Shown here: positions 2,159-62,045 of the stretch, one piece after another
How positions within the stretch are numbered: the first letter of the stretch is position 1
Layout of the letters: every line of letters begins with the position of its first letter
The notes under the pieces: generated by a model
What the model was told of the DNA's origin: nothing
Seen by the model: the letters and a program-made list of their open reading frames with translations, nothing else
The model's database searches: none
NCBI RefSeq assembly: GCF_011299555.1
Contig: NZ_CP049857.1
Span: 1,302,001-1,366,000, forward strand
DNA: 64,000 bases
Direction: 5' to 3'
DNA from: Dysgonomonas sp. HDW5A
Lineage (GTDB): Bacteria > Bacteroidota > Bacteroidia > Bacteroidales > Dysgonomonadaceae
Program-made: the position numbers and the translations under genes

Positions 2159-2174
2159 AAGTCTCTAAGACCTT
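2159..2174. repeat. Degenerate copy of the dispersed AAGGTCTGAGACCTT palindrome
   Basis: AAGTCTCTAAGACCTT followed by AT, preceded by AAAATC. It resembles the core palindrome found at eleven other sites in the window. It spans the stop codon of the double-cupin gene (TAG at 2167-2165, minus strand) and lies 33 bases before the acyltransferase start. Confidence 0.5.
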
Positions 2175-3055
2175 ATCTTTTTGAAATCGCTGTATCTGCG
2201 AATATAGTCTTCTTCCGTATATATTTCAGAAGCCAAAACTAAACAAATAGCTCCCGATGAATAGTTGTATTCTTTAGACCATATTCCGGGCAAAACATGT
2301 ATGCCTTGTATCGGTCTGTTTACAGTTATCGTTTTTCTATGTTTACCATCATCCAACTCTACATCAAAACTGCCACTGGCTGCTACCAGAAATTGATGGC
2401 ACTGTTTATGTGCATGCATGCCTCTCGTTTTTCCATAAGGAATGTCATATACAAAAAACACGCGTTTAACATCAAAAGGTATATCTACCGAACAGTGTAC
2501 AGGAGTTAAGTTACCTGCTCTGCTTTTTATGGTTGGCAATTCAACAGGCAAACAACCAAAAACTGTATTTTTCTGTGGTAAAACTTCAACCATAGGGTTA
2601 GGTAAAGCCACAGATTCAATAGTCTCCGATTGAATTTCACCGGCTTTTATAAATTGCTTGAAAAGTCTATAGTTTCGAATATATTCACTTTCATCGTAAG
2701 CCCCTGAGGATATAACAAGGCAGACTGAGTTTGTAGCAAAATTTTCTAAAGTACGCCACATTTTAGCAGGTACATACAATGCCTTATATGCTCTGTTTAA
2801 TTGATAACGGCGGGTTTCTTTTCCATCATTCAGAACAACATCAAAACTACCGGAAAGTGCAATGATTATTTCTTCCTGATTTTTGAAGGCATGACTACCT
2901 CTTTTCTGTCCGGCAGGAACGTCATATATCCAATAAACACGAGCTATTTTGAACGGGATTTGTCCGCTTTCTTCAATAAAAGAAAGATTTCCTCTTGCAT
3001 CCTCCACTTTGGGAAGCTCCAAGATTCGCTCTTTTATTTTTATTTTTGAAGCCAC
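2165..3055 (-). CDS. Tandem QdtA/FdtA-type sugar 3,4-ketoisomerase-like cupin protein
   Basis: Two consecutive copies of the roughly 135-residue cupin domain of TDP-4-keto-6-deoxyhexose 3,4-ketoisomerases (FdtA/QdtA/WxcM C-terminal family), about residues 8-140 and 155-293. These enzymes move a keto group on nucleotide sugars that feed O-antigen or S-layer glycans. The second copy carries the usual RGMHAHKQCHQF. The first reads RGSHAFKNQEE, so the second histidine of the HxH pair is Phe; this copy is probably inactive or altered. Single-domain members are about 140 residues, so this is a duplication/fusion. The start codon lies 16 bases inside the end of the EnvC-like gene, suggesting coupling. 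No TDP-sugar cluster is visible nearby. Confidence 0.85.
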   Translation of the reverse strand: MASKIKIKERILELPKVEDARGNLSFIEESGQIPFKIARVYWIYDVPAGQKRGSHAFKNQEEIIIALSGSFDVVLNDGKETRRYQLNRAYKALYVPAKMWRTLENFATNSVCLVISSGAYDESEYIRNYRLFKQFIKAGEIQSETIESVALPNPMVEVLPQKNTVFGCLPVELPTIKSRAGNLTPVHCSVDIPFDVKRVFFVYDIPYGKTRGMHAHKQCHQFLVAASGSFDVELDDGKHRKTITVNRPIQGIHVLPGIWSKEYNYSSGAICLVLASEIYTEEDYIRRYSDFKKIRS

Positions 3056-4431
3056 GGCTCAGGATTCAATTTGTTTGTTCCCTGCCACAACTGGAAGTGC
3101 AGTTGAGAGTTTCCTGTATCCGAATCGGTATAAACTGTACCCAAGGCTTGTCCTGCCGAAATTTTTTGTCCCTGCTTTACAAATATCTGTTGAATATTTC
3201 CGTAAAACGAATAATATCCGCCATGCCGTATAATAATACAGTTATTAAATCCTGGGAATGCAACAACACGAGAAACTTCTCCTCCGAAAACGGCACGAGC
3301 CTGAGCTCCCGCTCTAGCCTGTATATCAATACCATTACTATTGGTTGTCACTCGCCATCGACTATTTTGCTGTGTACCAAAACGCCCGACGATACTATAA
3401 CTACCTGTTACAGGCATAGGCAGACGTCCTTTGTTTGCAGCAAAATTAGATGATAATTTAAAATTTTCGGCTGTCACAGTCGGAGTAGCCATAGCCACCT
3501 CTTCGGTCTCTCTCGATGGAGCTTCCGTTTCAACCTTTGGAGAAACCTCTTTTTCTTTTGGTGATTCTGTTTTCGGCGGTACTTTGGCTGCTCTTGCAGC
3601 TTCACGTTTTGCCTTTTCGGCTCTTTCGGCACGCTCTCTTTTTAAACGTTCTCTACGAGCCTGCTCTTCTGCAAGGCGTTTTGCTTCACGCTCCTGACGA
3701 GCCACTTCTTGTGCTATAAGTTTTTCTATTTGAGCATTAAGGTTATCGGCTTGCTTTTGTTTGGTTTGCAAAATACTTTGTAATTCCTTTTGCTTTTTAC
3801 TTGCATCCGAAACCTCCTGTTTATGAACCTGTTCTTCTTTTTGCAAATTGGTTTGCTCCTTTTCCCGATTTCCTAACAAAGCCTTTTTCTCAGCCTTCGA
3901 TTTTTCGAGAGCCGCTTTCTTTTCCTGCAAAAGTTTTTGTTTTTCCTTAATCTCTGTGATTTGATTATCACGCCATTGTGAGTAATCTTTCAAATACTTC
4001 ATACGGCGAAGAGATTCAGCTAAAGAACTTCCCGACAGTACAAATAATAATTTATTACCACTTTGTTTTCTCAGAACAATTCCCTCAACCGCTCGTGCAT
4101 ACGATTTCTGCTGCCCCTTTAGATTAGCGGTAAGTATAACGATCTCTTTTTCCGTAGCAGCTTCCTGCTCGGCAATTGCACTCATCTCGTCATTTAACAA
4201 CGAAATCAACCGCTGACGTGAACTTATTTGCTCCGTCAAGAGATTGATTCTGCTTAATAATGTGGATGTATTTTTCTTTGTTTCGTTCAACAATAACGTT
4301 GTACTTTCTATCTCGCGTAAAGCCAATTTTCTCTTATTCTCCAGATCTTTTATTTTATTCGACTGGGGAAAAACAAATAGGGTTGAAAGAAATAATATAA
4401 ATAAAACAAGTACTGATCTCATCTTAGTCAT
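3040..4431 (-). CDS. EnvC-like murein hydrolase activator (degenerate LytM/M23 domain)
   Basis: A 463-residue exported protein. It has a signal peptide at residues 1-23 (cleavage after FPQ or nearby), a long coiled coil at about 25-270 rich in K/E/Q, then a C-terminal M23/LytM domain from about 340. Active M23 enzymes use HxGxD, a His in YxHL and HxH. Here these read SNGIDI, YGNI and QLHFQL, so several zinc/catalytic histidines are missing. This matches EnvC/NlpD-type activators, which switch on amidases at the division septum rather than cut peptidoglycan. It follows dut, the TPR gene and the DUF4292 gene, a conserved Bacteroidales order. Two palindrome copies sit directly before the start. 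A second ATG lies at 4422. Confidence 0.88.
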   Translation of the reverse strand: MTKMRSVLVLFILFLSTLFVFPQSNKIKDLENKRKLALREIESTTLLLNETKKNTSTLLSRINLLTEQISSRQRLISLLNDEMSAIAEQEAATEKEIVILTANLKGQQKSYARAVEGIVLRKQSGNKLLFVLSGSSLAESLRRMKYLKDYSQWRDNQITEIKEKQKLLQEKKAALEKSKAEKKALLGNREKEQTNLQKEEQVHKQEVSDASKKQKELQSILQTKQKQADNLNAQIEKLIAQEVARQEREAKRLAEEQARRERLKRERAERAEKAKREAARAAKVPPKTESPKEKEVSPKVETEAPSRETEEVAMATPTVTAENFKLSSNFAANKGRLPMPVTGSYSIVGRFGTQQNSRWRVTTNSNGIDIQARAGAQARAVFGGEVSRVVAFPGFNNCIIIRHGGYYSFYGNIQQIFVKQGQKISAGQALGTVYTDSDTGNSQLHFQLWQGTNKLNPEPWLQK

Positions 4432-4433
4432 TG

Positions 4434-4448
4434 AAGGTCATCGACCTG
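4434..4448. repeat. Dispersed palindrome, copy nearest the EnvC-like start
   Basis: On the gene strand CAGGTC-GAT-GACCTT, ending three bases before the ATG of the EnvC-like gene. It shares the AGGTC/GACCT arms with a different central triplet. It lies 22 bases centre to centre from the next copy. Confidence 0.6.
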
Positions 4449-4455
4449 TTTGTTT

Positions 4456-4470
4456 AAGGTCACAGACCTT
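4456..4470. repeat. Dispersed palindrome, second tandem copy before the EnvC-like gene
   Basis: On the gene strand AATAAAAAGGTC-TGT-GACCTTAAA. This is the full flanked form of the element, in the same orientation as the gene, within the probable 5' leader. Confidence 0.75.
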
Positions 4471-4622
4471 TTTATTATTTTATTGAATAACTATTCACAT
4501 AGAATTGCTTACACGAAATAAAGATAGCAAACTTACTTAAATTCACTGAACTATTTATTGCTTTGGCAAATTTAAAAACAATAGATAGTTATGATTTTAA
4601 TCATATTCTTAAATATTTACTT

Positions 4623-5477
4623 TTACTTAATATAGTTTTTCAGAATATCCGATACCGAAACTCTGGTATATTTAGCAGGTAAACTATTATCTACAGTCAG
4701 TTCTTTATCAAAGTCCAATCCCGAATTAGACATTATCAGTTTGACTTTTTTCTTATTAAAATCGACATTAGCCTCCATTGTAGTCGGATACAAAGATGCA
4801 CTTTCTTTTACAAAATCACGATATATCCACCTCAATGAGTATTTCCCATCACGGGCAGTTATATGTGTTTCGGAAACCCGATCGTTCGGATCAATTACAA
4901 AACGATACGACAAGCCTACTTTATCTTTTGTTTCCAGATGGTACTTTCCACCATTCATCGTGATATCATACAGATTGTAATCAGTACCACCGACCTTACT
5001 CTTTCCCGGAATAAACAACGCATCTGTAAATAACGCTTGCAGATTGTTGTAGTTAAACTGTATTCCTCGTTCTTGCTCAAGATCTTTTATATTCTCAACA
5101 GCATATTTCTTGGATAAACGGTCTATAACATATACCGAATCGGGAGTGATGCTTAGTCTGAAAACTTCTGAATTAATAAACGGTGCCCGTATCGATAATT
5201 GTATTATCTCGTCTCTCACAATCTTTAATTGGCTGTTCACTTTCATTCCGGATTCTTTTGATCCGGATATCATTTCCAAAGCAATCTTACCACTGATTGT
5301 TTTATAGTCTGTTTCGGCAGATAGAACATCTTTTACAACCTGATCGTGTGTTTTAGCAACCACCGATCCATCGTTGCTTACGATTGACTTAGACGATTTA
5401 CAAGACGAAACCAAAGCAATCAGACTAAAGAAGAAAGCGAGTTTATAGATATTTTTTATGCTATTTGCATTCATCAT
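4623..5477 (-). CDS. DUF4292-type outer-membrane lipoprotein
   Basis: A 284-residue predicted lipoprotein. The hydrophobic leader ends in LVSSC, with the lipidated Cys at residue 26 followed by KSSKS. The rest looks like the DUF4292 family, whose members resemble LolA/LolB-type half-barrels (KTISGKIALEMISGSKESG near residues 59-77; a repeated beta pattern to the end). The family function is not established; handling of lipids or lipoproteins is only a structural inference. The start overlaps the stop of the upstream TPR gene as ATGATGA, so the two are probably translated together. The position between the TPR and EnvC-like genes is conserved in Bacteroidales. Confidence 0.82.
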   Translation of the reverse strand: MMNANSIKNIYKLAFFFSLIALVSSCKSSKSIVSNDGSVVAKTHDQVVKDVLSAETDYKTISGKIALEMISGSKESGMKVNSQLKIVRDEIIQLSIRAPFINSEVFRLSITPDSVYVIDRLSKKYAVENIKDLEQERGIQFNYNNLQALFTDALFIPGKSKVGGTDYNLYDITMNGGKYHLETKDKVGLSYRFVIDPNDRVSETHITARDGKYSLRWIYRDFVKESASLYPTTMEANVDFNKKKVKLIMSNSGLDFDKELTVDNSLPAKYTRVSVSDILKNYIK

Positions 5478-7228
5478 TTTATAGGATTAGGAGCAATAAA
5501 CGTTTTTGTTTCTATCTTTTTATCCAGAGTTTTAGATTCACTGCCTTTCTCTTTGGCTTTCTGCCAATATATCACAGCATTTTCCTTGTCATCAGTCATA
5601 TATAAGACATCACCATAGTGTTCCAGCACTTCGGCACTAATCTCTTTTTCTTTTTCCTCGCTGTATTTCACAGCATTTTCAAGATATATTTTAGCTGTAG
5701 TATAAGCACCTTGCATAAATAATATCCAGCCATATGTATCCAAGTACGTTGGATTAGTGGGTTCTGCTTTTATTGTAATGCTACTCATATTTTCAGCACG
5801 ATCCAGATCTTTATGAGTAAGCGACAAGTAATAACTATAGTTATTTAACACCCCCAGATTTTGAGGATTGTATTTCAACGATTTATCAAATTCGATAAAA
5901 GCACTGTCCTGCTGTTTCAATTCATAATAGATACTACCCTTCTGACCATAAAACTCAGATAGTAAACGTGGATTATTTTCTGCGAAACCGATTCCTCTGT
6001 TTAAAGTTTGGAGAGCCTGTTTGAATTCCTTTTTCTGATATTCACCTACCGATAAGTAGAAGTAAAACAAAGGTTCTTCGGGCAAATATACTATAGCTGA
6101 CTTACATACATCGATAAGAGCATCTATGCTATCTACATCTGTCGATTGAAGCAATTGTTCCCATCCCACAGGATTTGTAGGATCAGATTCTGCATAAACG
6201 CGATATTGAAAGTTAGCCTCTTTTTTCTTATCCTGAACCATCAGCAGATTACCATAAAGCAAGTTAAACTTTGCCTCTTGAGGAAACTCTATCATTAAAG
6301 AATCAAGAAGGGCATTAGCCGGAGCCAAATCTTGTTTGTTCTGTTGTAAGATTCCGATGTATTGACTTAATATTCCGATTTTAGTATCAACATCCGTTTT
6401 GGCACTAAATAGAGCTGCACGAAGTTCGGCCTCAGCTTTCGGCTGATCATCAATGGTCTGATAGTAATTAGCCATCGATGTAATCAGATACGGATCTTCA
6501 GGATCTATCGATTTAGCTTTGGTCAAAGCAACATAAGCTTCTTTAGTCTTCCCATCCTGCAGGTATAAATTACCCAGCAATATATAATATCTTATTTCCT
6601 GAGGGTATTTATCTATGTATTTTTGAACCTCTGCATATGCCTTTTTCTTGTCATTAAGAGCTGAGTAGAGTTTGAACTTCTGGATAGTAATTTTTTCGTT
6701 CATACCCATAGTACGCTCCAAATCATTTAACGCTTGAATAGAGTTGTTTAAATCACCATCAAGACGATATACCTCCGACAGGTACATATACAATTCTATT
6801 TTTGAAGTATTGAGATTAATCAATTTTTGATAAATCGCTGCCGCATCCTTATACTCTTGTCTCTCGGCATAAGATGCTGCAAGAGCCATATTATAATAAA
6901 AATTGTCAGGATCGTAATTTGCCGCCTTTTTATAATAGGTATACGCCTCGTCTTTATTCTGAATAGAGTTGAAGAAATTACCCAATTCGAATAATACACT
7001 GGCATTTGTCGAATCTATCTTCATACAATATTGGAGATAATCATAAGTTGCTCCATATTGCTCAATAGATTTACTATTCATGGCATTATAAAAATAATAG
7101 TCAAATTTGCGTTGATCGTCCAAGCTAAGAGATTCGGTTACAACCGCAGAAGCTGTCTGAGCAAATATATTATTGATGCCTAAAACAAATACTATAAGGA
7201 ATAGAATCGGATATTTACATTTTGACAT
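5474..7228 (-). CDS. Secreted tetratricopeptide-repeat protein
   Basis: A 584-residue protein with a signal peptide (about residues 1-24, ending near IFAQ) and roughly a dozen TPR units across residues 30-560. Clear repeats include VLFELGNFFNSIQNKDEAYT, IRYYILLGNLYLQDGKTKEA, FYGQGSIYYELKQQDSAF-like and ILFMQGAYTTAKIYLE segments. TPR arrays are protein-protein scaffolds, and the leader places this one in the periplasm or at the outer membrane. It sits between dut and the DUF4292 lipoprotein gene. A joint role of the three exported products in envelope assembly is plausible but inferred. The start has Lys-rich residues followed by a hydrophobic core, as expected for a leader. Confidence 0.88.
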   Translation of the reverse strand: MSKCKYPILFLIVFVLGINNIFAQTASAVVTESLSLDDQRKFDYYFYNAMNSKSIEQYGATYDYLQYCMKIDSTNASVLFELGNFFNSIQNKDEAYTYYKKAANYDPDNFYYNMALAASYAERQEYKDAAAIYQKLINLNTSKIELYMYLSEVYRLDGDLNNSIQALNDLERTMGMNEKITIQKFKLYSALNDKKKAYAEVQKYIDKYPQEIRYYILLGNLYLQDGKTKEAYVALTKAKSIDPEDPYLITSMANYYQTIDDQPKAEAELRAALFSAKTDVDTKIGILSQYIGILQQNKQDLAPANALLDSLMIEFPQEAKFNLLYGNLLMVQDKKKEANFQYRVYAESDPTNPVGWEQLLQSTDVDSIDALIDVCKSAIVYLPEEPLFYFYLSVGEYQKKEFKQALQTLNRGIGFAENNPRLLSEFYGQKGSIYYELKQQDSAFIEFDKSLKYNPQNLGVLNNYSYYLSLTHKDLDRAENMSSITIKAEPTNPTYLDTYGWILFMQGAYTTAKIYLENAVKYSEEKEKEISAEVLEHYGDVLYMTDDKENAVIYWQKAKEKGSESKTLDKKIETKTFIAPNPIK

Positions 7229-7258
7229 ATATGTTTTGTGCTTAGTGTTTTGCTGTTT

Positions 7259-7690
7259 TTATTTTCCGGTGTGACCAAAACCACCTGCTCCGCGCGTCGT
7301 TTCGTCTATTGTATCTACTTCCTCCCACTCCACCGTAGCATGAGCAGCAATAACCATCTGGCAGATACGTTCTCCGTTCTGGATAGTAAAAGGTTCACTC
7401 GATAGGTTGACAAGTATTACACGTATTTCGCCACGATAATCAGCATCAATAGTTCCCGGCGAATTCAAGACAGTAAGTCCATGCTTCAGTGCCAATCCGC
7501 TTCGAGGACGTATCTGAGCCTCGTATCCTTTAGGTAATTCGATAAACAATCCTGTTGGGATTAACTTTCTCTCTAGAGGTTTCAGCACTATATCCTCGTC
7601 TATATTTGCTCTCAAGTCTAGCCCTGCCGAATACTCTGTAGCATATTCAGGAAGCGAGTGAGCCGATTTATTTATAATTTTTACTTGCAT
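7259..7690 (-). CDS. dut: Deoxyuridine 5'-triphosphate nucleotidohydrolase (dUTPase)
   Basis: Trimeric dUTPase of about 143 residues; it hydrolyses dUTP to dUMP and pyrophosphate, keeping uracil out of DNA and supplying dTMP synthesis. All five motifs are present in order: [35 protein letters not shown] and the C-terminal [10 protein letters not shown] arm that closes over the active site. The ATG at 7690 (MQVKI) is preferred; a GTG at 7699 would add only three residues. The 5' leader holds a copy of the dispersed palindrome, and a TATCTTTG -7 box lies at 7832-7839. It is the first gene of the TPR/DUF4292 set. Confidence 0.97.
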
Positions 7691-7765
7691 AAGTAGCACT
7701 AATATTTATTGTTACATTTCACAACTATAACTGCCTCTCGCCATTATGCTTACCAAAGCAATAAA

Positions 7766-7780
7766 TAGGTCTGAGACCTT
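7766..7780. repeat. Dispersed palindrome in the dut leader
   Basis: TAGGTC-TGA-GACCTT, preceded by GCTTACCAAAGCAATAAA and followed by ATG. The flank closely matches the copy at 21219 (ACTTACCAAAGCGACAAA), so the conserved unit is about 35-40 bases. Its orientation is opposite to dut. Confidence 0.8.
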
Positions 7781-7831
7781 ATGTTGTGCATTCTGCTATT
7801 CAATCTGTTGCGAAATTAATTAATTCTTTAT

Positions 7832-7839
7832 CAAAGATA
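7832..7839 (-). promoter_or_regulatory. Probable dut promoter -7 box
   Basis: TATCTTTG on the minus strand, matching the Bacteroidetes TAnnTTTG -7 element. No clear -33 box. It would give a leader of about 135 bases that contains the palindrome at 7766. Confidence 0.5.
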
Positions 7840-7864
7840 CAGCAAATCATCAAAAACTTAACAT

Positions 7865-8770
7865 TTAATTAGGTTTCAACATTTTGATAAACGAAATGTT
7901 CATTAATGCTATCGCAAAAAGAATTAATACAATACCTATCCATTGATATACATTGACAGTCTCATGTATAAACAGATAAGCCATAGTTACCGAAACAGGA
8001 AGTTCTATGGAAGCGATAATACCGCCTAAACCTACTCCCACCAAAGGCATTCCCTTTGTAAACAACAAAGGAGGAAGAACTGTTCCGAAGAATGCCAAAA
8101 CAAGTCCCCAAGTCCACAATACACTGGGATCGAATTTTTGCATCAACGAGTACCCCCACACCATAGACACCATAATTAAGGAGCCTATCAGCATAAACAT
8201 ACTGCGTACCATCGGACGATAACCCGTAGCTATATTATTGGTAGCCAAGAATGTCAGACTGTAAGATATGGCAGCCAGAAATCCCCAGAAAATACCACGC
8301 CAATCGAGTTCAACATCAGCATTCAATACATTTGTTGCTAAAACAGTACCTAGCAAAACAATCAAAATAGAAACCAGCTTCACTGGTGCAGGTTTTATTT
8401 TATTTACCAAAAGATCCACAACAACGCCTATCCAAACAGACTGCATCAGCATCACAATACATACCGAAACGGGAATATATCTTAGCGAGAGATAGTAAAA
8501 GGTACTTGTCAGCCCCAACGGAATACCGCCAAGCATTAATTTAAAAATATCTTTTCGAGAGGGACGATTTATTGCTTTTGAAGACGATACCCTATTCGAT
8601 ATCAAGTTTAACAATATTATTACTGAAGCTCCAACGAGCGCTTGTGCAAACGTAAGCTCGGCAGTTGTATAACCATCTGCCAATCCTTTTTTTATAAATG
8701 TAGCTACAATTCCATAACTTGAAGCTCCAATAGCAACAAGTAAAATACCTTTTATCGACTTATTATTCAT
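7865..8770 (-). CDS. EamA/DMT-family transporter
   Basis: A 301-residue inner-membrane protein with ten hydrophobic segments in two fivefold halves, the EamA (DMT superfamily) layout. The first half starts ILLVAIGASSYGIVATFIKKG (a typical EamA opening) and the second starts near FWGFLAAISYSLTFLATNNI. C-terminal ELPVSVTMAYLFIHETVN is the usual end motif. Members export metabolites or amino acids, and some take up sugars; the substrate cannot be predicted. It is a separate unit between the phosphatase and dut, with a 94-base gap to the dut promoter box. Confidence 0.9.
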   Translation of the reverse strand: MNNKSIKGILLVAIGASSYGIVATFIKKGLADGYTTAELTFAQALVGASVIILLNLISNRVSSSKAINRPSRKDIFKLMLGGIPLGLTSTFYYLSLRYIPVSVCIVMLMQSVWIGVVVDLLVNKIKPAPVKLVSILIVLLGTVLATNVLNADVELDWRGIFWGFLAAISYSLTFLATNNIATGYRPMVRSMFMLIGSLIMVSMVWGYSLMQKFDPSVLWTWGLVLAFFGTVLPPLLFTKGMPLVGVGLGGIIASIELPVSVTMAYLFIHETVNVYQWIGIVLILFAIALMNISFIKMLKPN

Positions 8771-8902
8771 ATATATATTTTATCTCTTTCTCAACTCTTC
8801 TTTCGAGTTTTTCAAAAAAGGCTGCAGCCCTATTTTATTTCTTTGGTCAGTAAATACTGCAACCTGCACTTTATTACAAATCTCTTGCACAAAAATCAGC
8901 TA

Positions 8903-21140: not shown

Positions 21141-21218
21141 TTAGTAAATAAATGTATTTAATGATCTATTTTTTAGATTATAATTTGCTATGGCTGTTCT
21201 ACTTACCAAAGCGACAAA

Positions 21219-21233
21219 AAGGTCTGAAACCTT
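21219..21233. repeat. Dispersed palindrome at the punA/thiL junction
   Basis: AAGGTCTGAAACCTT, preceded by ACTTACCAAAGCGACAAA and followed by ATT. It contains the first two template positions of the punA stop codon (TAA at 21234-21232, minus strand). Orientation is opposite to the genes. Confidence 0.8.
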
Positions 21234-22047
21234 ATTTAAGTCTTTTGATAACTTCCTGTATGATAAATGCCATTTTAGGTTGAGCTATTTTAGCTGCTTC
21301 TTGCACTTCTTCATGAGTCACCTCCACAATTTTGCCTATCACTCCCAGATCGGTAATAATAGAGAATGCAAGTACTTTCATTTTTGCATGGTTAGCCACA
21401 ATTACTTCGGGAACTGTAGACATACCTACAGCATCTCCACCTATTATCCGGAAATAATTGTATTCGGCGGGAGTCTCAAATGTAGGTCCCTGAGTACCTA
21501 CATACACTCCGTGCTGTAGTTTTATATTGTTCTCCTTTGCAATATCCATTGCTAATCTGCGGAGATCTTTATCATAAGCATTGCTCATATCAGGGAAACG
21601 AGTTCCCAATTCGTTGAAATTCTTTCCGTGTAAAGGATGTTCGGGAAATAGGTTGATATGGTCATCAATAAGCATAATATCAGCTATATCGAAGCTTCCG
21701 TTCATTCCTCCTGCTGCATTCGAAACAAAAAGATATTTTATATCTAATGCTTGAAATACACGTATAGGGAATGTTACTTCTTTCATCGTATATCCTTCGT
21801 AATAATGAAAACGACCTTGCATAGCAATCACCTCATTATCTCCTAATTTTCCGAAAATAAGTTTTCCACTGTGCCCTTCTACTGTCGACACAGGAAAATT
21901 AGGTATTTCAGTATATGGTATTTCTTTTTTATCGGTAATAGCATTGGCTAGCTCACCTAAACCTGTACCAAGAATAATAGCTGATTGGGGTATATGACCG
22001 ACTTTACTCTTGATATAATCGGCGGTTTCACGAATTTTCTCTAACAT
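21232..22047 (-). CDS. punA: Purine-nucleoside phosphorylase (trimeric type)
   Basis: Cleaves purine nucleosides with phosphate for salvage. The 271-residue protein has the phosphate-binding GTGLGEL (27-33), GRFHYYEGY (78-86) and SNAAGGMNGSF. GPTFETPAEYN holds the purine-contact Glu and GGDAVGMSTVPEV the ribose-contact Met. At the position where human PNP has Asn243 this protein reads FSIITDLG, with Asp. Asp there is associated with 6-aminopurine preference in the related MTA phosphorylase, so base specificity should not be assumed. The start lies 20 bases inside lpxK. The gene ends in a palindrome copy. Confidence 0.93.
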   Translation of the reverse strand: MLEKIRETADYIKSKVGHIPQSAIILGTGLGELANAITDKKEIPYTEIPNFPVSTVEGHSGKLIFGKLGDNEVIAMQGRFHYYEGYTMKEVTFPIRVFQALDIKYLFVSNAAGGMNGSFDIADIMLIDDHINLFPEHPLHGKNFNELGTRFPDMSNAYDKDLRRLAMDIAKENNIKLQHGVYVGTQGPTFETPAEYNYFRIIGGDAVGMSTVPEVIVANHAKMKVLAFSIITDLGVIGKIVEVTHEEVQEAAKIAQPKMAFIIQEVIKRLK

Positions 22048-42859: not shown

Positions 42860-42896
42860 AAAGAAAGATAGGCTTGAATAAAGTCTATCTTTCTTT
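42860..42896 (+). terminator. Hairpin after the NagB-like/PIG-L gene
   Basis: AAAGAAAGATAG pairs exactly with CTATCTTTCTTT around a 13-base loop. There is no T-run beyond the U-rich right arm, so it may be a terminator or a processing/stability hairpin. Confidence 0.55.
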
Positions 42897-42935
42897 ATGA
42901 TTAACTATTGGAACCTCTTCTTCCAAAACAATAAA

Positions 42936-42950
42936 AAGGTCTGAGACCTT
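42936..42950. repeat. Dispersed palindrome before nagB
   Basis: Perfect AAGGTCTGAGACCTT in CTTCCAAAACAATAAA-core-AAAT context, 30 bases before nagB and in the gene orientation. Taken as the reference copy. Confidence 0.85.
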
Positions 42951-42980
42951 AAATATGAATAACCATAAACACTATACAAC

Positions 42981-43901: not shown

Positions 43902-43980
43902 TATCCTAAATAATACGCAAAATAACAGCAAGCAATTAATTCAGAATTATTTATCAATTATAACTTGCTTAAGTAATAAA

Positions 43981-43995
43981 TAGGTCTGTGACCTA
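43981..43995. repeat. Dispersed palindrome with swapped outer pair
   Basis: TAGGTC-TGT-GACCTA. Compared with AAGGTC..GACCTT the outermost A/T pair is T/A on both sides, so symmetry is kept. Preceded by TTGCTTAAGTAATAAA, 12 bases before the next start. Confidence 0.8.
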
Positions 43996-44007
43996 AAATA
44001 GATAACA

Positions 44008-54866: not shown

Positions 54867-54936
54867 GATCACAATTACAAATCCGGCTTTTCCAAACTTG
54901 CTAACATCACAAAACGTTGTATTTATAAAACATTCC

Positions 54937-54949: not shown

Positions 54950-54986
54950 CGATACATCTGTTTCAATTCCACACAGATGTAGATAG

Positions 54987-55015: not shown

Positions 55016-55025
55016 TTATTCTGTT

Positions 55026-55054
55026 TTTGACAGTATTTAAAACTCCTACATTTG
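55026..55054 (+). promoter_or_regulatory. Probable promoter of the LiaF-like/LytTR genes
   Basis: TTTG (55026-55029), 17-base spacer, TACATTTG (55047-55054), 27 bases before the start at 55081. Confidence 0.6.
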
Positions 55055-55080
55055 TTATAAACAATAAAAAACGTATCACA

Positions 55081-55866: not shown

Positions 55867-55975
55867 GGTTGCAAACTTCTGCGACACCCTTATGGGTACA
55901 ACCACAAGAGGCTACTTAATCATAAAATGCAGCAATACTATTGATGCTGCTTAAATACACATTATCATTTATCAG

Positions 55976-56815
55976 ATGAATAATAGTCGTTTAAAATTAC
56001 TAATTCTCCCATTAATTATTGTAATTATTACTCTTATAGTAACAGTTGCAATAATGGCTCCGCTTATACCATTACCACTCTCCGATCTTATTTTAGATGG
56101 GGCTATATTCGGATTATTATTGGCGATATTAAATTTCTTATTAAAAGAAATCATTAGATATTCCAATTATAAATCTTTACCTATAATTCAGCAAATCGTT
56201 AACTACGGAGCATTAGCCATATTATTCGTATTAAGTTGGGTAGGAATAAGCTTTTTGATACTTTATATAATATCGCCGGAGAATGCAATGAATTATGTAC
56301 TCCCAACCGTACCAATACGGATTACCCTAGCTTTACTTACCTATGGATTGCTTATATTATTATATGGATATATTTTTACTCAAAATCAAGAGGAAGAAGT
56401 TAGTATAGACATCGATGTAGAGCATACCACAGATATCGAATCCTCAGAAAAAACCATGACAAACGAAGACACTTCTGACAGCGAAATACTAGAACATATT
56501 GCGGTGAAAAATGGGCAGAAAATTGACCTTATATTTATCAATGATATAATATCGATTCAGGCTGAAGGAAACTATGTAATGATCTTCACCCCCAAAGGGA
56601 AGTATTTGAAAGAACAAACAATGAAGTATTTTGGAGACCATTTACCTGCCAATAAATTTGTCAGGGTACACCGTTCAAACATTATAAATATAGATTATAT
56701 ACAACGCATAGAACTGTATGAGAAACAAAGCCAAATGCTGAAACTACAGAATAACCTACAAGTTAAAATGAGTATTGCCGGATACAAAGAATTAAAAAGG
56801 GTACTAAATCTCTAA
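55976..56815 (+). CDS. Membrane-anchored LytTR DNA-binding regulator
   Basis: A 279-residue protein with four membrane helices (about 7-27, 32-53, 68-92 and 106-128) and a short acidic linker (EEEVSIDIDVEHTTDIE). The C-terminal LytTR DNA-binding domain runs from about 170 to 279: NDIISIQAEGNYVMIFT, YLKEQTMKYFGDHLPANKFV, RVHRSNIINIDYI, all typical. It lacks a receiver domain, so the sensor must be the membrane part or a partner such as the LiaF-like protein encoded 109 bases upstream. The direct repeats before that gene are its likely binding site. Confidence 0.9.
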   Translation: MNNSRLKLLILPLIIVIITLIVTVAIMAPLIPLPLSDLILDGAIFGLLLAILNFLLKEIIRYSNYKSLPIIQQIVNYGALAILFVLSWVGISFLILYIISPENAMNYVLPTVPIRITLALLTYGLLILLYGYIFTQNQEEEVSIDIDVEHTTDIESSEKTMTNEDTSDSEILEHIAVKNGQKIDLIFINDIISIQAEGNYVMIFTPKGKYLKEQTMKYFGDHLPANKFVRVHRSNIINIDYIQRIELYEKQSQMLKLQNNLQVKMSIAGYKELKRVLNL

Positions 56816-57135
56816 AAAGGATTCGTCATAAGAATAAGTCTAATATCTTGTATTCGACCGGAACCCCGATCACTAATTGCTTAAAAGTAAGTCAATCTGC
56901 CAGTAAAACGAGCTTATCACATATATTACAAGAGAATCTGAGCTCTTTGATTCGCACCGGATATATCTATATTCAAACAGGAAACTTACATACCGAATTG
57001 AAGATAACTCAAGGAGGAAGATAATCGGATTATCAACCCTTACCTTTAATTTCAAAAGAATATTTATTTTCAGCGACTAATTCGTGTTTTTATAGGGATA
57101 CGAGAAAATTATTTTCAGTCGAAAGAATTAAATCT
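56816..57135. other. Non-coding stretch between the LytTR gene and bcp
   Basis: About 320 AT-rich bases. A 60-codon minus-strand frame (57055-56873) has no recognisable features and is not called. No RNA gene or strong hairpin seen. Confidence 0.4.
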
Positions 57136-57143
57136 TATCTTTG
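57136..57143 (+). promoter_or_regulatory. Probable bcp-recA promoter -7 box
   Basis: TATCTTTG, 23 bases before bcp; a TTTTC sequence about 20 bases upstream may serve as -33 box. Confidence 0.6.
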
Positions 57144-57166
57144 GTTTCAAAATAAATATAGAAAAT

Positions 57167-57655
57167 ATGGCTCTAACTATCGGAGATAAAATACCTGAGA
57201 TTTTAGGTACGGATCAGGCGGGAAAAGAAGTAAAAACGAGTGACTTTAAAGGTCAGAAATTCATTTTGTATTTCTATCCCAAAGATAATACCCCCGGATG
57301 TACAGCCGAAGCCTGTAACTTCAGAGATAACTTCTATGAATTGCGTAAGGCTGGTTACGAAATTGTAGGGGTGAGTGTGGATGACGAAAAATCGCATATT
57401 AAGTTTATCGAAAAATATGAACTTCCTTTTCCTTTGATTTCGGACAAAGACAAAGTTTTAGTTGAAGAATTTGGAATATGGGCGGAAAAAACTTTAGCAG
57501 GTAAGAAATATATGGGTACCTTGCGTTCTACATTTTTGATTGACGAAAATGGTGTGATCGAACAAGTCTTTACTCCTAAAGAAATCAAAGCGAAGGAGCA
57601 TGCCGAGCAGATATTGGATTGGTTAACAGAGCTAAAAAACAAAAACAAAAAATAA
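57167..57655 (+). CDS. bcp: Thiol peroxidase, Bcp-type peroxiredoxin
   Basis: Reduces hydrogen peroxide and organic hydroperoxides. The 162-residue protein has the peroxidatic Cys in [14 protein letters not shown] (about 42-55), with the resolving Cys five residues later, as in atypical 2-Cys Bcp proteins. [11 protein letters not shown] and [10 protein letters not shown] are family landmarks. It is separated from recA by only two bases, so peroxide defence and DNA repair are cotranscribed here; this linkage also occurs in related genomes. Confidence 0.95.
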
Positions 57656-57657
57656 TA

Positions 57658-58689
57658 ATGGCTGACGAAAAAGAAAAAGCAAAAAAAGATGTTGCAGCAC
57701 CCAATAGCGATAAGCTAAAGGCTTTACAGGCAGCAATGGATAAGATTGAGAAGAGTTACGGCAAAGGCTCAATCATGAAGTTGGGAGACGAAAAAATAGA
57801 AGATATAGCTGTAATACCAACAGGTTCAATCGGATTAAATGCGGCGTTAGGCGTAGGAGGTTTTCCTCGCGGACGTGTTATCGAAATATATGGTCCCGAA
57901 TCGTCAGGTAAAACAACATTAGCAATTCATGCTATTGCCGAAGCTCAAAAAGCGGGTGGCATAGCTGCATTTGTGGATGCAGAGCATGCTTTTGACCGTT
58001 TTTATGCCGAAAAACTAGGTGTTGATATAGGTAACTTACTTATTTCTCAACCGGATAATGGAGAGCAAGCATTGGAAATCGCAGAACAATTGATCAGATC
58101 ATCGGCAATTGATATTGTTGTGATTGACTCGGTTGCTGCACTTACTCCAAAAGCTGAATTAGAAGGAGATATGGGTGATTCTAAAATGGGACTTCAAGCC
58201 CGTTTGATGTCACAAGCACTTCGTAAACTAACGGCTGCAATCAATAAAACAAATACAACCTGTATATTTATCAACCAGTTGCGTGATAAAATCGGCGTAA
58301 TGTTTGGTAATCCAGAAACTACAACGGGTGGTAATGCCTTGAAATTTTATGCTTCTGTTCGTCTTGATATTCGCCGTATCGGTCAATTGAAAGATGGAGA
58401 AGAAGTTAAAGGTAGCCAGACTCGTGTGAAGGTGGTGAAAAATAAAGTGGCACCTCCTTTCCGTAAAGCTGAATTCGATATTATGTACGGTGAAGGTATT
58501 TCACGTGCAGGAGAAATTATCGACTTAGGCTCGGATTTAGGTATCGTCAAGAAAAGCGGATCGTGGTACAGTTATAATGAAACGAAACTGGGACAAGGTC
58601 GTGAAGCTGCTAAAGATATGATGAGAGATAATCCCGAATTGGCAGATGAACTGGAACAATTGATTTTTGCAGCATTGAAAGCAAAATAA
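57658..58689 (+). CDS. recA: Recombinase RecA
   Basis: Strand-exchange ATPase for homologous recombination and SOS coprotease. About 343 residues from the ATG at 57658 (MADEKEKA), two bases after the bcp stop; a longer frame reaching back into bcp is rejected. Walker A is GPESSGKTT (about 74-82) and Walker [13 protein letters not shown]. The L1 and L2 DNA-binding loops are [20 protein letters not shown] and [20 protein letters not shown]. Intact and of normal length. No LexA-like operator was seen in front of the bcp promoter. Confidence 0.98.
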
Positions 58690-58723
58690 AGTCTCAAGAC
58701 TATTAATAAAAGGCTAAGACTTT
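58690..58723. repeat. Two decayed palindrome-like units after recA
   Basis: AGTCTCAAGACT (58690-58701) and AAAGGCTAAGACTTT (58709-58723), the second in AATAA-core-AGAT context. They directly follow the recA stop codon and resemble the dispersed palindrome with substitutions. Confidence 0.35.
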
Positions 58724-58757
58724 AGATATTGGCAGTGTCTTAAATAATGAGTAAATG

Positions 58758-58792
58758 AAAAGCTACAGGTTGTAAAACTTGTAGCTTTTTTT
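58758..58792 (+). terminator. Terminator after recA
   Basis: AAAAGCTACA pairs with TGTAGCTTTT around an 12-base loop; the right arm runs on into TTT. Confidence 0.8.
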
Positions 58793-58824
58793 ATTTGTAG
58801 AAATAATGAGCCAATAAAAGAAAA

Positions 58825-58872
58825 ATTCTCTCAAATTCCCCCGTTTTTTTTGGGGGGGAGATTTGAAAGAAT
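58825..58872. other. Long GC-cored inverted repeat with T8 and G7 runs
   Basis: ATTCT and TCAAAT arms pair with ATTTGA and AGAAT. An inner CCCCC pairs within GGGGGGG, with a loop of G and eight T. About 16 pairs with two small bulges. It lies between the recA terminator and the HIT gene 3' end; possibly a terminator for the HIT gene or a repeat element. Confidence 0.6.
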
Positions 58873-58942
58873 CTATATGATAAAAATTCAACGTTGTAGT
58901 TGATGCTTACACAAAAGTATGAATAATACCTTTGTATAGTCG

Positions 58943-58957
58943 AAATCTCTGACCTAG
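58943..58957. repeat. Decayed palindrome copy at the HIT gene 3' end
   Basis: AAATCTCTGACCTAG followed by AT. The HIT stop codon (TAG, 58956-58954 minus strand) falls in the same place within the right arm as at punA and greA. Confidence 0.35.
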
Positions 58958-59355
58958 ATATTTTCCAATTCAGATATAATGTCTTTAGTGATTTGTTGGA
59001 ATTCGTCTTCCAATAACTTTAATCTGGGATTAGACAAGTTCATATCTCTCTCGGCATTAATGGGTATTAAATGTATGTGTGCGTGAGGAACTTCCATTCC
59101 TATTACCATGAGTCCTATTCGTTTACAAGGTACTGCCCTTTGTATGGCTTTGGCTATTTTCTTACTATACACAATCATTTCAGATAATACATCATCATCC
59201 AAGTCAAAAAGATAATCTGTCTCATGTTTGGGTATAACCAATACATGTCCTTTAGCCATCGGTCTGATGTCTAAAAAAGCAAAGAAATTGTCGTTTTCGG
59301 CAATCTTATAACATGGTATTTCACCTTTTATTATTTTACTGAAAATAGTCGCCAT
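58954..59355 (-). CDS. HIT-family nucleotide hydrolase
   Basis: A 133-residue histidine-triad protein of the Hint/HinT branch, which hydrolyse adenosine phosphoramidates and related nucleotides. The triad HAHIHLIP is at residues 91-98. N-terminal FSKIIKGEIPCYKIAENDNF and HVLVIPKHE are family landmarks. The cellular substrate is not known for this branch. It follows greA in the same direction; a palindrome copy lies in the 93-base gap. Confidence 0.95.
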   Translation of the reverse strand: MATIFSKIIKGEIPCYKIAENDNFFAFLDIRPMAKGHVLVIPKHETDYLFDLDDDVLSEMIVYSKKIAKAIQRAVPCKRIGLMVIGMEVPHAHIHLIPINAERDMNLSNPRLKLLEDEFQQITKDIISELENI

Positions 59356-59435
59356 CTTAGCTCTTTTTGAATTAATGTAAATAATTATTGATACTCATAA
59401 TAGACTCAGGCTTTTACAATTGCCTAACTAACAAA

Positions 59436-59450
59436 AAGGTCTGAGACCTT
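59436..59450. repeat. Dispersed palindrome at the greA/HIT junction
   Basis: Perfect AAGGTCTGAGACCTT in CCTAACTAACAAA-core-AAAT context. It overlaps the greA stop codon (TAA at 59451-59449, minus strand). Confidence 0.85.
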
Positions 59451-59919
59451 AAATAGATATATCAATAATTTCAAAAGATACCATTCCATTAGGTACTTTT
59501 ATTTCTGCAATCTCACCTACCTTTTTACCCATTAAACCTTGAGCAATGGGAGTATTGATGGCAATTTTATTCTCCTTCAGATTCGCTTCACTTTCGGCAA
59601 CCAACATATAAGTCATTTGTTGATTGTTTTTGGTGTTTTTTATTGTAACCTTATTTAGAATCTGTACAGAATCTATGCCAATAGAGCTCTTATCTATCAG
59701 TCTAGCATTAGCTAATAGATTTTTCAGTTGTCCGATTTTAGCTTCAAGTAAGCCTTGAGCTTCTTTTGCTGCATCATATTCAGCATTCTCCGAAAGATCG
59801 CCTTTATCGCGAGCCTCTCCGATTTGTTTAGAGATTTTAGGTCTTTCCACTGTTTCCAATAAGTTGATGTCTTCTTTCAACTTGTCGTAACCTTCTGCGG
59901 TCATGTAAGTAACAGCCAT
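59449..59919 (-). CDS. greA: Transcription elongation factor GreA
   Basis: Binds in the RNA polymerase secondary channel and stimulates cleavage of backtracked RNA. The 156-residue protein has the N-terminal coiled coil with its acidic tip (GDLSENAEYDAAKEAQ, about 38-53) that places Asp/Glu at the active site. The C-terminal FKBP-like domain follows (VSFEIIDI near the end). Normal length. A TATATTTG promoter box lies 100 bases upstream and the leader forms an 11-pair hairpin. The 3' end lies in a palindrome copy. Confidence 0.97.
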   Translation of the reverse strand: MAVTYMTAEGYDKLKEDINLLETVERPKISKQIGEARDKGDLSENAEYDAAKEAQGLLEAKIGQLKNLLANARLIDKSSIGIDSVQILNKVTIKNTKNNQQMTYMLVAESEANLKENKIAINTPIAQGLMGKKVGEIAEIKVPNGMVSFEIIDISI

Positions 59920-59959
59920 AGCAAAATGTTAATTAAAGATTAGTACTTTTTATAAGAGA

Positions 59960-60010
59960 TAAAAAGAAAAAGAATCCTTGTCGTATAGACCAGAACTCCT
60001 TTTCTTTTTA
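59960..60010 (-). promoter_or_regulatory. Hairpin in the greA leader
   Basis: TAAAAAGAAAA (59960-59970) pairs with TTTTCTTTTTA (60000-60010) around a 29-base loop. In the greA mRNA the right arm is U-rich, so it could act as an attenuator or 5' stabilising hairpin. Confidence 0.4.
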
Positions 60011-60019
60011 TGCTTGATG

Positions 60020-60051
60020 CAAATATATACTTAAATTTCGGACAAAACAAA
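60020..60051 (-). promoter_or_regulatory. Probable greA promoter
   Basis: Minus strand: TTTG (60051-60048), 20-base spacer, TATATTTG (60027-60020). Confidence 0.6.
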
Positions 60052-60065
60052 ATCCTATCCAATAA

Positions 60066-61223
60066 TTATAATAATTTTTGGATTTCAGACTCGATATTTT
60101 CTCCTGGTAATAAGCGTTTTACAATTTCACCATTACGGTTAATTAATAGTAGAGAGGGAAGGGCTTGTACATTAAACTTCGAAATCAGATCTGAGTTCAA
60201 AGACTTGTTCTCATGCACTGCAACCCAAGGAATATTAGCTGCTGAGTTTTTCCAGAAATGCACATCTGTATCGAATGACACCTGATATATTTCGAAGTCC
60301 GGTTTAAATTTATTGTATAATTTATTCAATACAATATTATGCTCCGGTGATTTTTCCGATTGATATACAGTAAAATCTAATAGAACTACTTTTCCTTTTA
60401 ATGAGGTCAGGTTTACGGGAGTTCCGTTTACATCGGGTAATTCAATATTATAATATTTAGCAGCGTCAATTTCATTGGCGTTATTTATATCAAAGGGTTG
60501 CTTTTCGCTTTGTCTGCGTACTTTAATCGCATTCAGCGTATAGTCATGCAGATGCTTTGCGCGTGGCGAATCAGGGTAGTTCATATCCCAGGCTGTTGCC
60601 ACAGCAGCGAAAGGTTTATAATCTGATTTATCGTAAGGGTCAAAAAATAGATAGCCTTTTACTTTTTGAAATAAGGCGAAGTAAGAAGCCGGATTTTTAG
60701 TATCCGCAAAAATAATTTTCAAAGCAGTATCTTTATATTCAGATGCAATAGTTTGTATTTGACTGAAATATTCCTGCTCGTTAACTTCTTTATTACTGAA
60801 TTTTCGTTGAAGTTCATCTAAAGCCTGACTTGCTTTGTATTGAGCCAAAGTGATCGCCTTTAGTTGAAGATTTGCTTCTGATCCTTCTACATTATACTCA
60901 GTGCCAAAGTTCTTTTCAGAAGCATTTACCTTGATTGTTTCAGTAGAGTCGATAACCAAATTTATTACCTGCCCGTTTAAACGCAGGACATAAAATTCAG
61001 GATAAGGAGTAGATGTTCCTTTGAATTTAAACTCTCCTTTTGTACCTGGTTTTATTGAATCAAGTAGGGTTGTTTGGCTCAATTCACGTTTCTCTAAATA
61101 GAGCATGGTGCTATCTGTAGCATCGGAGATCTTACCTTCGATAACAAATTTAGGTCCTTTGTCAGAGCACGAAACAAGGGCACATAAAACAAAAATGGTA
61201 AATAGATTTCGGAACATCTTCAT
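60066..61223 (-). CDS. Thioredoxin-fold lipoprotein lacking the CxxC pair
   Basis: A 385-residue lipoprotein; leader ends ALVSC with lipid Cys at 19. Residues 25-125 are a DUF4369-like beta domain (FVIEGKISDATDSTMLYLEK), then a helical linker. A TlpA/AhpC-TSA thioredoxin domain (about 255-385) includes LPDVNGTPVNLTSLKGKVVL and QALPSLLLINRNGEIV with the cis-Pro. Where relatives have WCxxC this one reads FTVYQSEKSPEHN, with no Cys. It is therefore unlikely to be a thiol oxidoreductase and may bind or chaperone instead. It has its own promoter. Confidence 0.85.
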   Translation of the reverse strand: MKMFRNLFTIFVLCALVSCSDKGPKFVIEGKISDATDSTMLYLEKRELSQTTLLDSIKPGTKGEFKFKGTSTPYPEFYVLRLNGQVINLVIDSTETIKVNASEKNFGTEYNVEGSEANLQLKAITLAQYKASQALDELQRKFSNKEVNEQEYFSQIQTIASEYKDTALKIIFADTKNPASYFALFQKVKGYLFFDPYDKSDYKPFAAVATAWDMNYPDSPRAKHLHDYTLNAIKVRRQSEKQPFDINNANEIDAAKYYNIELPDVNGTPVNLTSLKGKVVLLDFTVYQSEKSPEHNIVLNKLYNKFKPDFEIYQVSFDTDVHFWKNSAANIPWVAVHENKSLNSDLISKFNVQALPSLLLINRNGEIVKRLLPGENIESEIQKLL

Positions 61224-61331
61224 AATAAATAGTATTAAATATTTATTGTTTTTTATTTGTAATGATAGATATACTTTATATCTCTGTAAAGGTGATCAAG
61301 GCAAACAGCCTGTACACTCAAAGACCATAAA

Positions 61332-61346
61332 AAGGTCTGAGACCTT
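61332..61346. repeat. Dispersed palindrome in a divergent region
   Basis: Perfect AAGGTCTGAGACCTT in AAAGACCATAA-core-AAAT context, about 10-25 bases into the predicted transcript of the cysteine-less lipoprotein gene. Confidence 0.85.
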
Positions 61347-61361
61347 AAATAAAATTTTGTG

Positions 61362-61391
61362 CAAATATATGAATAAAAAATACTAAACAAT
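61362..61391 (-). promoter_or_regulatory. Probable promoter of the cysteine-less lipoprotein gene
   Basis: Minus strand: ATTG (61391-61388), 18-base spacer, TATATTTG (61369-61362). Confidence 0.65.
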
Positions 61392-61400
61392 TACTATTCT

Positions 61401-61432
61401 TTTGTTATATAAGATACGAATCTATATATTTG
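61401..61432 (+). promoter_or_regulatory. Probable promoter of the Cys/His-rich protein gene
   Basis: TTTG (61401-61404), 20-base spacer, TATATTTG (61425-61432). The ATG at 61442 is only nine bases past the box, so the mRNA would be nearly leaderless. Confidence 0.6.
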
Positions 61433-61441
61433 TACCTCAAT

Positions 61442-61909
61442 ATGAAGGTAAAATATCACAACATATTAGTTTTCTTTCTGGCTGCAATAGTATTTTTTGT
61501 TGGAGCCGGAGTTACTGTTGTTGACCTTTGTTGCTCAAAATGTGTTGACAATGTAATGTCCATGCAGCTTCATCCCGACGATTGTTCGATGGCTGAAATG
61601 AAAACAAAATCTCCTTCATGTTGCTCTCAGGAAGATCATTCGATGAATCATTCTGAAGAGAGTGCTTTGTGTATGAGTGGTCATACGGGTAAATGTTGCG
61701 AAGCCAAACGTGTTTCGATAGATCTCGATCGCTCGGTTTACCTGCCAAACCTGTTGCATGCAATGGTTTGGACTATAGTTCCTACTTTTATTTCTAACTT
61801 CCATTTGATTTCGGATACTAACGAACCTCTTATTGCAGGTGAAGCCAGAGATCCGATCCCAATTCCTCCGCGAAACTATCTGAGTCTGATCAGAGTTCTT
61901 ATTATTTGA
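61442..61909 (+). CDS. Cys/His/Met-rich exported protein, HYC_CC_PP-like
   Basis: A 155-residue protein from the ATG at 61442 (MKVKYHNI), since a TTG further upstream lies inside the promoter box. It has a hydrophobic leader (about 8-28), then nine cysteines within about 60 residues (LCCSKC, HPDDC, SCC, LC, KCC) plus a DHSMNHSEES His/Met stretch. C-terminal IPPRNYLSL ends with PP. This resembles the small HYC_CC_PP proteins found before metal-related TonB receptors in Bacteroidetes. It probably binds a soft metal such as copper in the periplasm (inference). The receptor gene follows in the same direction. Confidence 0.75.
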   Translation: MKVKYHNILVFFLAAIVFFVGAGVTVVDLCCSKCVDNVMSMQLHPDDCSMAEMKTKSPSCCSQEDHSMNHSEESALCMSGHTGKCCEAKRVSIDLDRSVYLPNLLHAMVWTIVPTFISNFHLISDTNEPLIAGEARDPIPIPPRNYLSLIRVLII

Positions 61910-62030
61910 TTTTTGTTGGCGATGCAATTTTTTGTTGTGCGGGTAATCAGTTTATCCTGTGCAGCGATTATTTTGTATTATATACTTTCGTGTTATAACC
62001 AACCGGGTTGTATTGCTAAACAAAACAATA

Positions 62031-62045
62031 AAGGTCAAAGACCGT
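62031..62045. repeat. Dispersed palindrome variant before the TonB receptor
   Basis: AAGGTC-AAA-GACCGT in TGCTAAACAAAACAATA-core-ATC context, 20 bases before the receptor start and in the gene orientation. Confidence 0.65.

Follow-up and report, generated by a model that had tools for sequence, protein, structure and literature searches.

The stretch analysed here, termed the window throughout, comprises 64,000 nucleotides of the genome of Dysgonomonas sp. HDW5A (contig NZ_CP049857.1, positions 1,302,001 to 1,366,000). Several of its gene junctions carry a palindrome of the form AGGTC-N3-GACCT, and a sequence-only reading had listed twelve such sites as a dispersed palindromic element of 35-40 bases. 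The palindrome proved to be real, but it is the right end of a unit of about 91 nt, and the proposed length had to be given up. The repeat is very probably a non-autonomous mobile element. The copies in the window are listed below with their matches to a position matrix of the right end (matrix), a profile hidden Markov model (HMM) and a covariance model.

4435..4447, minus strand: hairpin-only remnant AGGTC-GAT-GACCT, an exact AGGTC-N3-GACCT preceding the M23-peptidase (EnvC-like) gene; matrix 13.6, no covariance-model match.
4455..4537, minus strand: copy with a degenerate left part and the hairpin AGGTC-TGT-GACCT at 4457-4469; covariance model E 0.002, matrix 40.0.
4538..4627, minus strand: full-length copy of the AGTTC arm type (AGTTC/GAATT); HMM E 7.6e-12 (independent), covariance model E 1.8e-10 (own row).
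7692..7781, plus strand: full-length copy flanked by an EamA transporter gene and dut (neighbours from Pfam); HMM E 7.3e-24 (in the seed), covariance model E 2.3e-13 (model row).
21143..21234, plus strand: full-length copy; HMM E 6e-17, covariance model E 3.1e-12 (model row).
42862..42951, plus strand: perfect core with a degenerate left part ahead of nagB (TIGR00502); covariance model E 1.3e-4, matrix 43.2.
43921..43996, plus strand: core AGGTC-TGT-GACCT ahead of a thioredoxin-fold gene (Pfam); covariance model E 8.2e-5, matrix 34.1.
59370..59451, plus strand: copy filling most of the 93-bp gap between greA and HIT (Pfam); covariance model E 4.7e-7.
61258..61347, plus strand: copy with a perfect core between divergent genes, upstream of a DUF4369/thioredoxin gene; covariance model E 0.021, matrix 38.9.
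61963..62046, plus strand: decayed copy AGGTC-AAA-GACCG; covariance model E 0.02, HMM E 3e-4.

The covariance model contained 41 rows, among them the window copies 7692-7781, 21143-21234 and 4538-4627, and the listed sites at 7766 and 21219 therefore match it by construction. Nine of the twelve listed sites were supported. Eight of them (4456, 7766, 21219, 42936, 43981, 59436, 61332 and 62031) matched the covariance model with E <= 0.021, and the site at 4434 was counted as an exact palindrome beside another copy, despite its low matrix score and the missing model match. The three sites described as decayed forms, at 2159, 58690 and 58943, were not supported, as no match was obtained with the matrix (>=6), the HMM (E <= 1) or the covariance model (E <= 1). 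The list was also incomplete, and the full-length copy at 4538-4627 had been missed. This copy adjoins the copy at 4455-4537, and its AGTAA left end holds the stop codon (4623-4625) of the upstream minus-strand gene. A minus-strand phosphorylase-superfamily gene (Pfam) has the TTA at 21232-21234 as its stop codon, and greA has that at 59449-59451. The gap before the M23-peptidase gene (4434-4627) is taken up by three consecutive copies or remnants on the minus strand, of which two adjoin directly. No Rfam 15 model matched the window at its gathering score.

The abundance of the repeat was quantified in the window and in the 4.3 Mb HDW5A genome, and the claim that the core is repeated above chance was borne out. 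With up to three mismatches the core yielded 15 strand-matches in the window, compared to a mean of 1.21 in 100 shuffles. In the genome the core AGGTCTGAGACCT had 99 exact copies versus none of the reversed control, and AGGTCNNNGACCT with at most one mismatch was found at 443 places versus 56 for the controls. A search with a DNA motif, which had been proposed as a check, also revealed enrichment over the control: in 800 kb of HDW5A, sampled as 40 evenly spaced stretches of 20 kb, the right-end matrix detected 105 copies versus none in a Markov control, which extrapolates to about 560 copies in the genome. Four near-identical stretches of the type AACGCTTTCTTCATCCTGCGGGTACC... and close variants (L002:17852, L003:3626, L016:19320 and L028:5199) match the one-mismatch core by chance, and they look like a repeated coding segment. 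In 400 kb of another genome of the genus (G001) 85 copies were found, compared to 54 in a largely collinear 400-kb block of HDW5A (score >=14; one in the Markov control of the HDW5A block). The detailed analysis covered about 1.5 Mb of HDW5A, overlaps included, and 0.4 Mb of G001, and genes were called with a crude open reading frame script.

Four of five further genomes of the genus contained 34 to 245 exact cores, with the maximum of 245 in G004, while the fifth, which is 62% complete, had none. With no more than 150 candidates scored per genome, matches to the covariance model numbered at least 150 each in HDW5A, G001, G004 and G005, at least 68 in G003 and at least one in the incomplete genome G002. 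Outside of the genus, 31 of 35 genomes lacked an exact core and four had one to four, and a 17-base extended core was absent from 394 other genomes drawn from the phylum. In the genomes searched the repeat is essentially confined to the genus Dysgonomonas. Neither the core as a word nor a title on this Dysgonomonas repeat was found in the literature searched, the scope of which mostly excluded subscription journals.

The typical unit reads TTA/AGTA...GACCTTA, with the slash marking its left boundary. The right TTA is conserved at 96, 88 and 93% by position in 111 copies. The left flank was analysed in the 80 of these copies that hold a literal AGTA, which is thus conserved there by construction; it consists of T (59%), T (80%) and A (78%), and 41 of the 80 span 88 nt from AGTA to GACC. 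In a subset of the copies conservation reaches well beyond the palindrome on its left side. For the consensus 69 copies were dereplicated to 57, of which 41 full-length copies were chosen and the other 16, mostly of unusual length or divergent, were dropped by hand (alignment A1). It reads AGTAA..G.AAATATTTAATG.TATATTTTA.AA.TATAACTA.CT.T.GTTGTTATACTTGCCAAAGCAATAAAAAGGTCTGAGACCTTA and folds into the right-end hairpin, with no other helix predicted. The intact unit begins with AGTA and an AT-rich left part around AAATATTTAATG. Its interior varies and is followed by CCAAAGCAATAAA and a hairpin of 5 bp, AGGTC-TGA-GACCT or a matched variant of it, and the unit closes with TTA. It sits at a TTA, with one TTA preceding the unit and one ending it. 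The sequence AAATATTT near the left end is AT-rich and invariant in type. The ends, AGTAA... on the left and TAAGGTC... as the reverse complement of the right, are not evident terminal inverted repeats, and the foot of the hairpin is AATAAA/AAAA, not GTAG (or GTGG).

The hairpin arms vary in matched pairs. Among 183 strong matches the pair AGGTC/GACCT was found 93 times, AGTTC/GAACT ten times and AGCTC/GAGCT four times, and most of the others had a mismatch. In the alignment one base pair was changed on both sides in ten of the 41 sequences and a second pair in one. When the two ends were searched with separate HMMs and paired, the interior was of the usual kind in 67 of 83 pairs and longer in 16. 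Ten of these 16 match a pattern of paired GTAG palindromes, and all three arm types occur among the ten. Such chimeras, in which the ends of the repeat surround a REPIN-like pair of GTAG palindromes (REP, repetitive extragenic palindrome), have a length of 120-124 nt; they are located at L012:18030, L014:19214, L185, L189, L191, L156 (block A400 222489) and at four places in the G001 block, and a further one, L180, was recognized by eye. The chimera B 200321 occurs in G001, whereas HDW5A lacks it at the corresponding place, and because of this the chimeras appear to travel as units.

A comparison of Dysgonomonas relatives revealed filled and empty sites. D. alginatilytica DSM 100214 shares 86% identity with one window protein, and a flank of about 5 kb could be aligned at 82%. 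The gap between greA and HIT has 93 bp with the unit in the window and 12-13 bases without it in G005 and G003; in G001 and D. alginatilytica the insert looks decayed, and G004 has another sequence. Alignments showed a full copy at the 61332 site in D. alginatilytica and G001 and none in G005, and a perfect copy in D. alginatilytica at the place of the decayed window copy 61963..62046 (alignment with L116). In the 400-kb comparison 36 of 58 HDW5A sites were comparable; in G001, 19 had a same-orientation copy at the corresponding place or close to it, five had one of opposite orientation and 12 had none. Of the G001 sites, 69 of 97 were comparable, with 20 same-orientation copies in HDW5A, eight opposite ones and 41 empty places. 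The remaining sites (22 in HDW5A, 28 in G001) were at edges or without synteny.

The right flank was located in the other genome for 63 of 90 sites, and at 42 of them no element was present. The triplet before the right flank was TTA at 17 of these 42 unoccupied junctions; without B 342791, which is probably a decayed copy, as others could also be, it was 16 of 41, compared to an assumed background of 5% (p 5e-11). Among the four of 90 sites with a gap-free match on both sides, the clearest is B 231479, at which ...GCTATTA/AGTAACAG...ACCTTA/AATAAG corresponds to ...GCTATCA/AATAAG. Because sites are filled in one relative and empty in another, the repeat is regarded as a mobile element and not as an operator. 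This favours one of the suggestions of the sequence-only reading, a REP-like repeat or miniature inverted-repeat transposable element (MITE), which is further supported by the defined unit at a TTA.

The orientation of the copies was compared with the direction of replication. The GC skew of sampled stretches indicated an origin at about 1.6-2.1 Mb and a terminus at about 3.6-3.75 Mb. The regression included gene direction and used 289 of 326 sites, after exclusion of those located within genes, at the ends of stretches or close to the inferred origin or terminus. The copies were preferentially in the leading sense, with log-odds of 0.66 (z 5.2, n = 289). The effect was 0.75 in HDW5A (z 4.9) and 0.67 in the G001 stretch (z 2.5), and it was found with long copies (0.74, z 3.4) as well as short ones (0.69, z 4.2). 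The ratio was 39:22 in divergent gaps (p 0.04) and 13:6 in convergent gaps (p 0.17), and at sites present in one genome only it was 35:18 in favour of the leading orientation (p 0.027). Intergenic TTA itself is near balance between the strands (6429:6186).

A replication-linked orientation is what single-strand transposition of the IS200/IS605 type predicts: as described in PMC6006769, these elements insert into the lagging-strand template and their subterminal hairpins are recognized. If the strand as drawn is the active one, we infer that the observed strand is that favoured by insertion into the lagging-strand template. Movement of the repeat would, as with IS200/IS605 elements, involve single-stranded lagging-strand template and an HUH-type enzyme recognizing the terminal hairpin. 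This enzyme would be supplied in trans, and it may now be lost, lie outside the assemblies or be unrecognised. Insertions inside genes would be removed by selection, while those at stop codons or in gaps would survive. A single-strand HUH-type mechanism is regarded as somewhat more likely than not. As a whole, and including this mechanism, the best explanation, held with somewhat more confidence than doubt, is that each supported site is a copy, or a surviving right end, of one non-autonomous mobile family of Dysgonomonas.

Several observations weigh against this explanation. The full-length copies of the G001 stretch are without bias (17 leading and 18 lagging, or 22:19 in a looser set). Some of the empty junctions may be decayed copies and not sites that were never occupied, and a gap-free match on both flanks was obtained at only four of 90 sites, two of them convincing. 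The arm finder chooses the most palindromic stretch and thus leans towards pairing, and the consensus fold has no clear hairpin near the left end. Concerning the enzyme, the Y1 transposase model PF01797 (E <= 0.001) had one match each in HDW5A, G001 and G003 and none in G002, G004 and G005; NF047646 (E <= 0.1) had three matches in G002, matches in G001, one weak match in G005 and none in G004; and TnpB was detected in none of the six genomes of the genus. On both sides of the one Y1 gene detected in HDW5A, element-like stretches are only weak (matrix 10.0 near L041:252; HMM positions 5-82, E 0.0021, at 2453-2529).

That gene encodes a TnpA-REP (RAYT) protein, is the only Y1 gene detected in the HDW5A genome (L041:1258-1797, near 418.7 kb) and has operon partners that we take, by eye, to be von Willebrand-type (vWA-like) genes. 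It carries the GTAG palindrome pair GTAGGGGC...GCCCCTAC within its reading frame, and its YIANNP motif fits subclass 2.4 of PMC6006769. The RAYT of G001 (L165:1430-2080) has the motif YIHQNP, is subclass-2.6-like and is surrounded by palindromes of the GGGATTTGCAATCCC type, which correspond to the "atypical" structures of PMC6006769. At 12 RAYT-type loci no clear copy of the element was found, the weak stretches beside the HDW5A gene being the best matches, and RAYT as a partner gained no support from the genus RAYT genes found. A match to an IS91-type Y2 enzyme was obtained in none of the six genomes and also in none of the control genomes, so that this search was uninformative.

An autonomous copy was not seen either, as no coding interior was present between element ends in the regions examined. 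Of 78 left ends, ten lacked a right end detected by the HMM within 60 bases; inspection by eye showed either a GTAG interior or a degenerate right end for eight of them and neither for two. At L145:13349 the right end follows 478 bases on, with no frame over 71 amino acids between. In 20 further HDW5A regions the first right end was never at transposon distance from a left end, apart from one chance-level left match at L188 (E 0.7, 3634 bases), and for seven of the left matches listed no right end matched downstream. G004 poses a sharp puzzle, since it has the most exact cores in the genus and no detected Y1 transposase or TnpB. It is conceivable, but doubtful, that the genus-wide population, with its roughly 560 HDW5A copies and more in a relative, moves via single-stranded DNA with the help of an unknown endonuclease or of host replication functions, no recognisable IS200/IS605 enzyme being involved, and with REPIN-type palindromes as exchangeable spreading cargo.

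The gene context bears on a possible role of the right end in RNA. Only four of 105 copies in the 40 HDW5A stretches lie inside called genes, although called coding sequence makes up 88% of an 864-kb sample; the location at gene junctions thus held genome-wide, and scatter inside genes as often as between them was not found. The distance of 3-110 bases to a following start codon, proposed for most copies, applies to a part of them. When the right end faces a gene end, the TTA of the element is the stop codon of that gene in 58 of 119 copies (assumed background 15%). Read from this gene, the reverse strand of the right end, TAA-GGTCTCAGACC-TTTTTATT, consists of a stop codon, the hairpin and a T-run, and the right end may therefore act as its terminator. 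The orientation relative to genes was indeed mixed, as had been noted from the window, and termination of the upstream gene was rejected as a general role on this ground. A promoter-side element was also considered, because none of 65 intergenic copies of a first sample were in convergent gaps (75 of 486 gaps); with nine of 241 copies in HDW5A and 11 of 85 in G001 in the larger set, no rule was left.

Whatever its origin, the right end could have been exapted as an RNA hairpin, kept as a terminator in reverse or as a leader hairpin in forward orientation, about 20-40 bases before a start codon. Short copies, which keep the hairpin and have a degenerate left part, lie along gene direction (0.53, z 2.7), while long copies tend to lie against it (-0.50, z -1.9), and 6-bp stems were predicted in three of four folded window stretches. 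However, the folding energies are unexceptional (z -0.60 to -1.79), and the short copies were found by a hairpin-centred matrix, which selects for hairpin survival. The effect of gene direction has opposite signs in HDW5A (0.49) and the G001 stretch (-0.77), so that selection for terminators or leaders can be viewed only as a possibility. Such retention is rather improbable as the explanation of the repeat, and it is compatible with mobility and not exclusive of it; an RNA-hairpin role as a side effect is possible.

Cut-and-paste movement of a MITE-like unit by a DDE transposase, with a target duplication of 2-3 bp (TA or TTA) and inverted ends that are now unrecognisable, is unlikely. The TTA or TA flanking the unit on either side might represent such a duplication, but it is equally expected for IS200/IS605-type junctions. 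In addition, the consensus ends are not mutual inverted repeats, a replication-linked orientation bias is unexpected from double-strand transposition, and no autonomous copy with the same ends was seen.

An operator of a global regulator, at which a dimeric protein would bind AGGTC-N3-GACCT, is very improbable and not needed: dyad symmetry, the intergenic location and the same-orientation copies at 19 of 36 comparable sites would fit, but the conserved unit of about 91 nt has one asymmetric left part, the arms change between subfamilies, presence or absence differs between close species, the orientation to genes is mixed and the copies coincide with stop codons.

Regarded as a mobile element, the repeat reshapes many gene junctions between close species, and it may add terminators at stop codons. 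With its defined ends, empty sites and several related genomes, it is a tractable system for asking what moves orphan palindromic repeats.

The repeat was compared with known kinds of elements. The palindrome-associated transposable elements (PATEs) of Haloquadratum walsbyi (PMC3119063) are similarly short and non-coding, lack terminal inverted repeats, have a palindrome close to an end and occur in many copies; they share the filled and empty sites and the invasion of the interior by other mobile DNA. They also show recent insertions though nearly all Y1 genes are broken (PMC3119063). The Dysgonomonas repeat is likewise too short to code, without terminal inverted repeats, and its orientation follows the lagging-strand template. 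In contrast, PATE palindromes are near both ends and resemble IS605-type ends of the same organism group, while the Dysgonomonas repeat has one clear hairpin. No matching IS end was found, and neither ends shared with IS605-type transposons nor mobilisation by TnpA could be established in the six genomes, which lack TnpB and of which G004, G005 and G002 lack Y1 by PF01797.

With REPs and REPINs, which are associated with TnpA-REP, the repeat shares the intergenic location, hundreds of copies, a hairpin with an unpaired 5' side and arm subfamilies (PMC6006769, PMC3733652). It differs in its missing GTAG foot and its asymmetric unit of 91 nt, and the palindromes in or next to the RAYT genes found are different ones, the GTAG pair in HDW5A and the GGGATTTGCAATCCC type in G001; no copies above chance were found beside the fetched RAYT loci of the genus, except for the weak partial L041 matches. 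CGTC-tagged repeats are also a palindromic family without a known dedicated transposase (PMC3733652), but in a broad comparison their tag and sequence differ. MITEs are likewise non-coding, occur in many copies and have a short direct repeat at the junctions, but unlike them the repeat is without terminal inverted repeats. Because the partner test for PATEs and REPs and the inverted-repeat test for MITEs were both negative, the repeat, which works like a PATE or a REP, is regarded as a variant apart within the PATE/REP/MITE kind.

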